Shown here piece after piece: positions 5,167-51,015 of a DNA stretch of 64,000 nt. The stretch comes from Chloroflexota bacterium (GTDB lineage Bacteria > Chloroflexota > Anaerolineae > B4-G1 > SLSP01): the NCBI GenBank assembly GCA_019873645.1, contig JAIOAX010000016.1, positions 39,928 through 103,927 on the forward strand, in the 5' to 3' direction. Under the pieces are notes generated by a model, which made no database searches, was not told the origin of the DNA, and saw nothing but the letters and a program-made list of their open reading frames with translations. Every line of letters starts with the position of its first letter. Positions within the stretch are counted from its first letter, which is position 1. The translations under genes were made by a program, and so were the position numbers.

Positions 5167-5955
5167 ATGAGCGAATCGGAGGATACCGATAACCGCACAC
5201 CGGACGTCGAAGCCATCCTAAACGAAGCGCAGCGCCGTATTCAAGAACGGATGCAGCAAGAGATTCCGCCGGGGCAACGCGCATGGGTAGATACGTTAAA
5301 CCGCTTCGTTTTCTGGTTGGCGCGTCACTGGCTGGCTCTGTTCAACACCCTGACGGCTTTGTTCCTCGGCGGGGCGGTACTGGCGCCGGTGGCGTTCCAA
5401 ATCGGCCTGCCCGGTCTGGCAAACCTGTTGTACGCTTTTTACCGTCCGCTATGTCATCAATACCCTTTCCGCTCCTGGTTTCTCTTCGGGCCGCAGCTTG
5501 CCTATCCACTCCTGGAACCCGTCAGCGTAGCCGAAATGAACGCGCTGCGTCTGTTTACAGGCGATGTATCCACGGGCTACAAGATCGCGCTGTGCCAGCG
5601 CGATGTCGCCATTTACGGATGCATGCTCCTGGGCGGACTGGCCTACGCCATACTGCGGGATAAACGGGAAATACGCCCCTGGCCAATGTGGCGTTACTTT
5701 ATCTTTGGCATCCTGCCGATGCTGCTTGACGGCGGTATCCAATGGCTTTCCTATGTCGTATGGGTGCTGCTTCCCGGTCTTATCCCCACCCCCTTCGAGA
5801 CGACGCCTTTGATGCGCACCCTCACCGGTGCGCTGTTCGGAGCAGGGCTTGTCGCCATCGCCTATCCCCACCTGAATGCCTATTTCGAGGATGTGTATCA
5901 TACGCTGGAACGCAAACTCGACACAACAAACTTATCTCTGGAGGCTACTGTATGA
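5167..5955 (+). CDS. DUF2085-type integral membrane protein
   Basis: Multi-TM; LLYAFYRPLCHQYPFRSWFLFG motif typical of DUF2085. Confidence 0.75.
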   Translation: MSESEDTDNRTPDVEAILNEAQRRIQERMQQEIPPGQRAWVDTLNRFVFWLARHWLALFNTLTALFLGGAVLAPVAFQIGLPGLANLLYAFYRPLCHQYPFRSWFLFGPQLAYPLLEPVSVAEMNALRLFTGDVSTGYKIALCQRDVAIYGCMLLGGLAYAILRDKREIRPWPMWRYFIFGILPMLLDGGIQWLSYVVWVLLPGLIPTPFETTPLMRTLTGALFGAGLVAIAYPHLNAYFEDVYHTLERKLDTTNLSLEATV

Positions 5956-6782
5956 CACCACCTGTTGGTCCAATCCTGTTCCAAATCGGTCCGATTGGCG
6001 TGCACTGGTACGGCGTCCTGATCGTCACCGGCATCATCCTGGGCGCAAACGTTGCCGCGTACCTGGCAAAGCGCGCCGATCAAGACCCGGAGATTATCTG
6101 GGACATGCTGGTCATCGTCGTGCTGCTGGCAATCATCGGCGCGCGCGTCTACCACGTGTTCTCGCAACCCAGCGACGGCTTACTCGGCTGGAACTACTAC
6201 AAAGAGCATCCACTGGAGGCGCTCTACATCTGGAATGGCGGGCTGGGCATCTACGGCGCCGTCATCGGCGGGGCGCTCGGCGTGATCCTCTTCTGCTTGA
6301 AGCGCGGCCTGCGCCCCCTCGAATGGCTCGACTTCGCCGCGCCAGGGGCGGCGATCGGGCAATCCATCGGCCGATGGGGCAATTTCGTCAACATCGAGCT
6401 GTATGGCCCACCCACGACCCTGCCCTGGGGACTACGCGTCCCGGCATCGCAGCGCATTCCACCTTACACAAATTTGATTCAGTACCCGGAGACAACGCTC
6501 TTCCATCCCACCTTCCTGTACGAATCGCTGGCGGCGCTGGCCTTGTGTCTGCTGCTGATGTGGATTGCCACGCGCTTCCGCACCAGACTGCTGGAAGGCG
6601 ATCTGCTGATAGCCTATTTGATGGGCTATGCCGTCATCCGTTTCTTCACCGAGATGCTGCGCCCCGACGCCTGGATGATCGGCAACATAGCTACGGCGCA
6701 ATTGATTGCGATCATCTTCTTCATCGCCGGCGCGGCTTTCCTGCTGGTGCGCCACCTGTGGCTGCCGCGCAAAACAGCATAG
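5952..6782 (+). CDS. lgt: Prolipoprotein diacylglyceryl transferase
   Basis: Signature IGRWGNFVNIELYG; ATGA overlap with the upstream gene. Confidence 0.95.
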   Translation: MTPPVGPILFQIGPIGVHWYGVLIVTGIILGANVAAYLAKRADQDPEIIWDMLVIVVLLAIIGARVYHVFSQPSDGLLGWNYYKEHPLEALYIWNGGLGIYGAVIGGALGVILFCLKRGLRPLEWLDFAAPGAAIGQSIGRWGNFVNIELYGPPTTLPWGLRVPASQRIPPYTNLIQYPETTLFHPTFLYESLAALALCLLLMWIATRFRTRLLEGDLLIAYLMGYAVIRFFTEMLRPDAWMIGNIATAQLIAIIFFIAGAAFLLVRHLWLPRKTA

Positions 6783-48576: not shown

Positions 48577-48696
48577 GGTGCGAAGACGATTTTTTCAAGA
48601 AACGATTTGCCGATCCTGCGGCGGTTGAGCGGCATCCTGCCGGCGGACGTGTCTACGGACGCTTATCAGGACTATCTGTCTGGTGGAAAAGTATGA
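48577..48696 (+). pseudogene. Antitoxin C-terminal remnant (putative)
   Basis: Open frame GAKTIFSRNDLPILRRLSGILPADVSTDAYQDYLSGGKV* without start codon, ATGA overlap with the PIN ORF. Confidence 0.35.
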
Positions 48697-49064
48697 CCGC
48701 TGAATCCGAACCGAAACTACGGGTGCTGTTCGATCTGAACGTGGTGCTGGATGTGCTGGCGCGCCGCCAACCGCACTATGCGGACGCCGCGCGGCTGTGG
48801 GCTTACGTCGAATCCGGGCAGATAGAAGGTCTGTTGGCGGCGCACAGTGTCACGATGCTGTTCTATGTGCTGCGCCGCCATCTGGGATTGCCTCAAGCGA
48901 AAAGCGCGCTGCACGATGTTTTACAGGTTTTTCGCGTGGCGGCGGTGGATCAGGCCGTCATCAAGGCTGCATTGATTTTGGGTTGGAACGATTTCGAAGA
49001 TGCCGTGCAGGCGACTGCGGTCGCACAGCCCACGCCACACGACATTTCTGGCCAGACGCGAAAA
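48693..49064 (+). pseudogene. PIN-domain toxin, 3'-truncated at the DGR template region
   Basis: KLRVLFDLNVVLDVLARRQPHYADAARLWAYVESGQIEGLLAAHSVTMLFYVL...LGWNDFEDAVQA; then non-PIN sequence antisense to the TR. Confidence 0.7.
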
Positions 49065-49200
49065 TTATGGGACGAACACCCCCACCCGAAACCCCACATT
49101 GTTGTTGGAGTTGTTGGCGGTGTTCCTGTTACGGTTGCCGACGTTGTTACGGTTGTTGTTCCACGCCCCGCCCCGCAAGGTCCTCGACCTGTCCCCACGA
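49065..49200 (-). other. Diversity-generating retroelement template repeat (TR)-like sequence
   Basis: Minus-strand frame SAVRGDRSRTLRGGAWNNNRNNVGNRNRNTANNSNNNVGFRVGVFVP*; 12 AAC + 1 AAT codons in 22; directly downstream of Avd; no start codon. Confidence 0.82.
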
Positions 49201-49206
49201 ACCGCG

Positions 49207-49560
49207 CTATTTGGGCGCGGATTTCGCCTTTGGATTGCGCCAGCCGCCCAAGAGATTGCCGATTTCGGTCACTTGCGCGGCGGCATACTGGTATTGTTCA
49301 GCGGTGAGCCATTGCAAATCGCGCGCCAGGCGTAGATATTTGCGCACTTTGACCAGCCGCACGTCGGCAAGCTGCAACTGCACCTTCTGCTGCCCGCCAT
49401 AGCTCATCGCCGCGTCAATCAATGTTTCATAGAAATCCAGCGTGTGATCCTGCAAGCGTTTGGTGAGGATGAAGCGCCGGCTGCGCGGGAAAGACATCGT
49501 GCAGGGGATCAGCCATTGGATGAAATCGTAAGTGCGCACGAAGATCGGCGATTCGTTCAC
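49207..49560 (-). CDS. avd: DGR accessory Avd-like four-helix-bundle protein
   Basis: FVRTYDFIQWLIPCTMSFPRSRRFILTKRLQDHTLDFYETLIDAA...RKYLRLARDLQWLTAEQYQYAAAQVTEIGNLLGGW. Confidence 0.85.
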   Translation of the reverse strand: MNESPIFVRTYDFIQWLIPCTMSFPRSRRFILTKRLQDHTLDFYETLIDAAMSYGGQQKVQLQLADVRLVKVRKYLRLARDLQWLTAEQYQYAAAQVTEIGNLLGGWRNPKAKSAPK

Positions 49561-49573
49561 GTTACGCTCTTTC

Positions 49574-49607
49574 AGACCTGACAGGTCTCGGAAGACCTGT
49601 CAGGTCT
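49574..49607. repeat. 34-bp perfect palindrome AGACCTGACAGGTCT-CGGA-AGACCTGTCAGGTCT
   Basis: Identical to 49727-49760. Confidence 0.95.
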
Positions 49608-49609
49608 AG

Positions 49610-49726
49610 CGGCGCCCGCAGGATCGCGCGCCGCAGGCCCCAGGTGTCGCCCGTGCGCACGTGGTTGATCCACCCCTGCACCGAGGCGTCCACTTGCGCA
49701 AACGTGAGCTTGCCAGCGGCGAGGTC
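49610..49726 (-). pseudogene. C-terminal fragment of a DGR reverse transcriptase
   Basis: [39 protein letters not shown], lying exactly between the two palindromes; catalytic domain absent. Confidence 0.7.
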
Positions 49727-49760
49727 AGACCTGACAGGTCTCGGAAGACCTGTCAGGTCT
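49727..49760. repeat. 34-bp perfect palindrome, second copy
   Basis: Identical to 49574-49607; supplies the stop codon of the 49753-51015 gene. Confidence 0.95.
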
Positions 49761-51015
49761 GAAAAATGATCACCAGCTTCGCCACCCAGGGGTAGATGAT
49801 CCAGCCTACCGCAAACACCGCCGCCAGCAGCGCCGCAAATCCCAGCGCCACGGGATGCCCAATGACCGCCGCAACGCACGCCAGCAGCACGAGCAGCGCC
49901 ATTCCACCGGCGTAGACCGCCAGCACGACGCGCCCCATCCCCTTATTCGCGTGGAACACACCCGCGACGGGCGGCAGCAGCGCCAGCCCGCCCACCGTCA
50001 ACGCGAGGAAGCCCCAGTTGCGCGCCAGCAGCGCGAGCAGCACTCCCAGTTCGGCGGCGAGGAGACAGACCGCCATCCACGTGGAAGCGACCCTGTCCTC
50101 GTCGGAGAGCGCCAGCCGCCCGAAACGGTCGAAGCGCAGCAGCAAGGCGAAGAGCGGTTTGGCGACCCACGTGAGGAGCGCGAAGGCCTGGTAGAGCAGG
50201 AGCAGCGGCAGGACGACGATCCACAGCGGCGGGAACGCGCGCGCCGCCACGCGCAGCGCCACGCGGATGCCGTGAAAAATACCGATGACGCCCCACTGTT
50301 CGTCTTCGGTGAGGCGCGACATCCACAGGAAGTAGCGCAACAACAGGCGGTAGATGAGATTGCGCGCTTTGAGCGCCTCGACGATGCCCTCGCGCGCCCA
50401 GCTCAGCGTGGGATCGAGCCGCAGCGCCTCACGGAAGGCGGCGAACGCTTCTTTCACTTTGTCGGCGTGGAGCAGCGCCCAGCCGTAGTTGGCGTGGGTG
50501 AGCGCGTTCTCCGGCGCGCGGGCCAGGGCGGTAGCCAGCGCCTCAAGCGCTTCCACCTTGCGCCCCAGACGCACCAGCGCCATCGCCTGCAGGTTGAGGC
50601 AGGTCACGTGCTCCGGGTCGAGCCGCAGGCCGGCTTCGGCGGCGGCCAGCGCGCGCTTCCAGTCCTTCTGGTACAGGTAGACACGCCCGGCGACAACGTG
50701 ATAGGCGACATTGTTGGGGTCAAGGCGCAACGCTTCGTGGATGGCGCGCAAGGCGTCGTCCGGGCGGTTTCGGTCAAGCAAAATCAGCGCATGGACATAG
50801 TGGGCGGAGGCGAACTCGGGCGCCAGGCCAATAGCGGTGCGGACTTCGCGCAGCGCGTCGGCGTTGCGTTCCTGGTAGTAGAGCGCCAGCGCCAGAAGCA
50901 CATGCGCGTCGGCGTCATTTGGGGCGGCGGCAAGCGCACGCCGCAGTGCAGATTCGGCATCTTTATAGCGCCGGGTGTGAAGGAGGAGCTGAGCTTGAGC
51001 GAGGTGTTTGTTCAT
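49753..51015 (-). CDS. TPR-repeat membrane protein
   Basis: Multiple TPRs then 4-6 TM segments; paralogue of 51068-52315. Confidence 0.8.

Follow-up and report, generated by a model that had tools for sequence, protein, structure and literature searches.

The locus raises the question whether an asparagine-rich reading frame directly behind a small gene resembling avd, in a Chloroflexota bacterium, is the template repeat (TR) of a diversity-generating retroelement (DGR), and whether such an element could still diversify a target gene. The initial annotation of the window (the whole stretch of 64,000 nucleotides analysed here) read it as a DGR remnant, either dead or served in trans. The window very probably carries a decayed Chloroflexota DGR of the NACHT-FGE type, which has lost both of its ends and whose avd gene and TR are unable to act. 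The remnant reading is supported by an Avd that scores over the cut-offs, by the tail of a reverse transcriptase (RT) and by a TR like those of intact DGRs. Of the two fates, death is favoured and service in trans is unlikely, because the spacer that follows the TR is incomplete and the assembly holds no cognate variable repeat (VR); the DGR is almost certainly dead.

The source genome (G000) is metagenome-assembled, with 4.9 Mb on 73 contigs, a completeness of 95.65% and a contamination of 5.73%. Profile searches of this genome find exactly three Avd genes above cut-off, in the window and on contigs C21 and C27, and two RVT_1 genes, on C21 and C27, with none on the contig of the window. No rRNA was found within the 64-kb window. 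The comparison sample consists of 80 Avd loci from named genomes, mostly Chloroflexota, and an adenine-biased TR/VR pair was recovered at 58 of them. The features of the window are collected in Table 1.

Table 1. Features assigned to the DGR remnant and its borders, in order along the minus strand
Feature	Position	Strand	Remarks
TPR-repeat membrane protein gene	49753..51015	(-)	TPR families; outside the DGR, left border
Dispersed palindrome (REP/MITE-like), copy 1	49730..49757	.	Overlaps 3′ end of TPR gene; left junction of DGR remnant
C-terminal remnant of DGR reverse transcriptase	49607..49741	(-)	~45 codons, equal to residues 275-319 of intact C27 RT; catalytic core absent
Dispersed palindrome, copy 2	49577..49604	.	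Between RT remnant and avd
avd, accessory variability determinant	49207..49560	(-)	117 aa, GTG start, intact ORF
Template repeat (TR)	49068..49195	(-)	AAC-rich core 49095-49163, RGGAW at 49175, GFRV 3′-terminal; outer limits approximate
Start of 3′ spacer RNA	49017..49067	(-)	First ~50 nt, 5′ arm of conserved hairpin only; truncated
Truncated PIN-domain toxin gene and last codons of upstream partner	48604..49020	(+)	Right border of DGR remnant

The avd gene and the template repeat

In profile searches the product of 49207-49560 reaches 94.3 bits against the NCBIfam Avd model (NF033474, cut-off 80) and 65.8 bits against Pfam bAvd (cut-off 40). It stays below the cut-offs of the 23S rRNA intervening-sequence (IVS) models, with 20.5 bits for 23S_rRNA_IVP (PF05635, cut-off 33.8) and 17.1 bits for TIGR02436 (cut-off 24). 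The protein is 43-52% identical to the Avd of intact DGRs. In the tree, the gene forms a long branch (0.76 versus a median of 0.2) and is closest to neither the C21 nor the C27 avd. Since both Avd models exceed their curated cut-offs, the Avd-like assignment of the initial annotation is borne out; IVS proteins, which might have been its sole match, are the ones that fall short. Judged by its profile scores, this 117-residue protein is a true Avd and not a 23S-IVS protein.

The asparagine-rich minus-strand frame is present as originally quoted, directly after the stop of avd. In the best 22-codon windows (49095-49163), 13 codons encode Asn and 12 of these are AAC, as first counted; the runner-up across the 64 kb, read in all six frames, contains 6. 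An in-frame start and a target ORF are both absent, and the ORFs listed over the stretch are out of frame, all of which had been correctly described. In position, length and AAC content the repeat resembles TRs from intact DGRs of G000 and its relatives, and the Asn/AAC block occupies the place taken by the TR in dozens of intact DGRs. In those of the source genome and its relatives, the differences between TR and VR are almost confined to TR adenines. The VRs within FGE genes lack AAC richness, unlike true TRs. From its letters and its placement, the block at 49068..49195 is a template repeat. The choice of TR over VR made at the outset thus finds support in the match to TRs whose VRs prove them, and homologues of the Asn-rich stretch do not always lie inside an FGE ORF, as had been considered.

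The reverse transcriptase remnant and the borders

The initial annotation rightly saw no RT catalytic domain but overlooked the RT tail at 49607-49741. The tail matches the intact C27 RT with a tblastn E-value of 1.5e-8 and 49% identity, and the RT of the congener locus G001:C1 with 84% DNA identity over 57 nt. It lies directly upstream of avd, and the order RT-avd-TR is that of G000:C27, G001:C1, G001:C4, G023 and G038. Both palindrome copies bracket the tail, and its first few aligned residues overlap the palindrome, which is a 28-bp, imperfect, dispersed and intergenic element found in the window, on C21 and C27 and in congeners. The left junction of the remnant falls on this repeat, where misassembly is possible in a metagenome-assembled genome.

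The TPR gene has orthologues in two congeners (83% identical in G001 and 81% in G002), and the palindrome behind it is also present in both (L078 and L079, respectively). Beyond this palindrome, the window continues with the RT tail, G001 with an MFS-like transporter gene and G002 with a two-component system. At the other border, homology of the window DNA to G001 and G003 spans exactly 48604-49020. The PIN gene is intact in these two genomes and truncated in the window, where the PIN_3 profile is covered from 1 to 100 of 115 positions, compared with 1-114 in the intact G001 orthologue. In G001 a single contig carries both the PIN and the TPR orthologue; the 6.2 kb that separates the two is filled by unrelated genes and contains no DGR. 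The segment 48604-49020 looks like a toxin-antitoxin-like pair in fragments: the upstream partner is reduced to its last codons and carries a 4-bp insertion, and the PIN gene is without its C-terminus. A frameshifted PIN gene reaching the end of the TR at about 49065 was considered and dropped, as the spacer model identified 49017-49067 as spacer and the congener PIN homology ends at 49020.

In the G002 orthologue of the C21 DGR (G002:C212, L064:8000-8960), a REP-type transposase and palindromes take the place of avd, the TR and most of the RT, while the RT tail is kept and the target is intact. This palindrome-adjacent transposase matches NF047646 with 46 bits, below the curated cut-off of 80. 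The palindrome is found at several breakpoints and may have caused them.

The spacer RNA 3′ of the template repeat

The 27 spacers of alignment A2 share 11 base pairs, all with compensatory changes, and in this fold 93.8% of cells are paired; the figure is 68.9% for shuffles and does not exceed about 50% when the fold is slid. The hairpin GCCGGAAATGC...GCCGAGGC is strongly covarying and conserved across Chloroflexota, KSB1, Nitrospirota and others (27 Avd loci). No Rfam family matches the spacer RNA at the gathering score. Full-length matches to the covariance model R1 reach 46-92 bits in many intact loci, such as C21 (87 bits), G019 (91.5), G038 (87) and G001:C1 (79). C27, in which a palindrome is inserted near the start of the spacer, scores only 19 bits, and the model misses some lineages, giving weak scores in G001:C4 and G023.

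In the window, the model matches 49017-49049 with 12.7 bits over model positions 25-59 of 142. This match is weak alone, with E-values, rough ones from a home-made model, of 0.0053 in 5 kb and 0.35 in 334 kb; it persuades mainly by lying immediately after the TR on the right strand. The model match reaches 49017 and the congener PIN homology ends at 49020, so the spacer is cut there. A second candidate in the genome (G000:C16:19071-19215, 19 bits) has no avd, RT, TR or target adjoining it (L166) and was treated as chance. In BPP-1 the spacer both brings in RT-Avd and serves to prime cDNA (PMC12875486), and by analogy the spacer here may have the same role. The hairpin of Avd-type DGRs is usable for finding TRs and for telling live from dead loci.

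Other DGRs of the genome and the search for a cognate variable repeat

The DGR-type RT that the initial annotation proposed to look for elsewhere in the genome is found twice, intact on C27 and with an in-frame stop on C21. The C27 DGR has the order target-RT-avd-TR-target, an RT of 340 aa and two NACHT-FGE targets. TR27 differs from VR27a at 11 of 19 adenine sites and 1 of 57 other sites, and from VR27b at 14 of 20 and 2 of 58. A palindrome (L016:9814-9841) lies inside its spacer directly behind the TR, and the TR itself seems to have lost part of its 5′ end. The C27 DGR, the sole one with an intact RT, may be impaired too. The C21 DGR has the order target-avd-TR-RT and a clear TR/VR pair. 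Its RT (L017:7956-8990, (-)) contains a TAA codon (CDVE*FFPAID) at the place of a CAG in the C27 RT (IEQFFPSID). The C21 TR, VR, spacer and avd look intact despite this stop, which marks either a pseudogene or an assembly error.

With the TR/VR pairs of C27 and C21 as positive controls, an adenine-masked pattern of the window TR, allowing up to 3 mismatches, matches only itself in its own genome and 47 relatives (48 genomes of the order). Every VR candidate from the genome and its relatives differs from the window TR at 13 or more non-adenine sites (e.g. 16/70, 19/84 and 21/73). None of the FGE genes of the genome, including the orphans on C17, C45, C3 and C10, matches it as a cognate target; its closest match in the genome as a whole is TR27 (80% over 64 nt). 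This absence is bounded by the completeness of 95.65%, and a VR could sit in the missing 4-5%. The lack of a homologous VR anywhere, which the initial annotation had set against its own reading, did come out, yet it shows an orphaned element and not a sequence other than a TR. The orphan FGE target at G000:C17:6591-7330 (L027/L028) has no adjacent RT, and its VR matches the TR of the congener locus G001:C1, with 17 of 35 adenine sites and 5 of 99 others changed; that TR is missing from G000.

Among the 80 Avd loci, L085, L095, L120, L123, L132, L134 and L140 are RT-deleted, and clean TR/VR pairs are present at L085, L123 and L132. The L123 TR and VR differ at 12 of 28 adenine sites and at none of 93 others. 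In L123 (Anaerolinea thermophila MAG, 5500-6604) the RT consists of its last ~70 residues, the spacer is complete and the genome has no RVT_1 elsewhere. RVT_1 is absent from 3 of the 7 genomes with RT-deleted loci, that of L123 included, though these genomes are possibly incomplete; the trans model is therefore not general.

Decay of the element and alternative explanations

The ancestral cassette would probably have had the order target-RT-avd-TR-spacer, perhaps followed by a second target. An RNA of the end of avd, the TR and the spacer would have been copied by RT and Avd with random bases opposite adenines, and would have served to rewrite the VR of the target gene. Such working is established for intact DGRs and matches the anatomy of the intact DGRs described here. 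At the left end, synteny suggests that a rearrangement at the dispersed palindrome cost the element its target and the whole RT except ~45 codons, and that the remainder became joined to the palindrome behind the TPR gene. At the right end the break is seen directly: the spacer stops ~50 nt past the TR, where the truncated PIN gene adjoins it. The avd gene and the TR are readable yet very probably inert, with no RT in cis, no complete spacer and no cognate VR. The element is very probably a decayed DGR that was eroded at REP/MITE-like repeats. As a counter-point, avd is still an open and well-conserved ORF, so that the loss would be recent or Avd would retain some use.

Such a use is the core of one alternative, in which the cassette is non-autonomous, its Avd and TR RNA being served in trans by the C27 RT, or its Avd aiding another DGR. 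C27 does have an intact RT, the window avd is intact, trans diversification has been reported in Thiohalocapsa PB-PSB1 (PMC10907252), and other RT-deleted Avd loci, such as L123, L085 and L132, have good TR/VR pairs. However, no cognate VR was found in the genome itself or in the 48 genomes of the order, the truncated part is the spacer that recruits RT-Avd and primes cDNA in BPP-1 (PMC12875486), C27 and C21 each carry their own avd, and the window avd sits on its long branch, so service in trans is very unlikely. Just as improbable is the broader proposal that the RT-less avd-TR cassettes (window, L123, L085 and L132) are a class of non-autonomous “satellite” DGRs served by RTs elsewhere; for the window, this presupposes a VR that has stayed hidden and a spacer able to work despite its truncation.

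It is quite possible, if not the likelier course, that the fragment was never complete at this site and that the RT end, avd, TR and spacer start were imported together by palindrome recombination or end joining. The DGR-free interval between the PIN and TPR orthologues of G001 agrees with this, as does the joining of the TPR-gene palindrome to different DNA in G000, G001 and G002; the window avd, however, is closest to neither other DGR of the genome and so is not a copy of those. Import differs from decay in place only by where the loss occurred. That there is no DGR at all, and that a 23S-rRNA-IVS four-helix protein lies beside a degenerate FGE-domain fragment, is hardly credible: Avd and IVS proteins share a fold and weak sub-threshold IVS matches exist, but only the Avd models pass their cut-offs, an RT fragment is adjacent, and the sequence is AAC-rich like true TRs and not like the VRs in FGE genes.

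Comparison with known systems

A decayed DGR in the window provides a mapped example of DGR death in Chloroflexota in which the two breakpoints are located and congeners can be compared. Dispersed palindromes also occur at other DGR losses in the genus, namely G002:C212 and the interrupted C27 spacer. Literature searches for RT-less DGRs yielded little beyond Dore et al. (PMC10907252), who in 2024 described incomplete DGRs of Thiohalocapsa in which MITE-like arrays replace the RT gene (DGR 4 and 5) or the TR (DGR 7), some of these incomplete DGRs being active in trans (PMC10907252).

The 28-bp dispersed palindrome resembles REP/RAYT or MITE-like palindromes, and the G002 DGR locus holds a palindrome-flanked REP-associated tyrosine transposase; unlike in REP/RAYT systems, the transposase match is below the cut-off and mobilisation of the palindrome is only putative. 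The window shares with BPP-1 (Bordetella phage, avd-TR-brt; PMC12875486) a TR immediately after avd and a structured spacer 3′ of the TR. It differs from BPP-1 in that all that is left of the RT is a tail upstream of avd, the spacer is truncated, there is no VR, and its Avd of 117 aa has phage Avd relatives that are only ~26-30% identical. The closest likeness is to the NACHT-FGE Avd-type DGRs of multicellular bacteria (PMC10907252), with which it shares the Avd/RT type of neighbourhood, incomplete loci and, in its intact relatives, C-type-lectin-like FGE domains on NACHT targets. Unlike the Thiohalocapsa DGRs, it lies in Chloroflexota, keeps the last ~45 codons of its RT, has its spacer cut as well and has no VR left. 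The window is a further, more degraded case of the decay already published for Thiohalocapsa.
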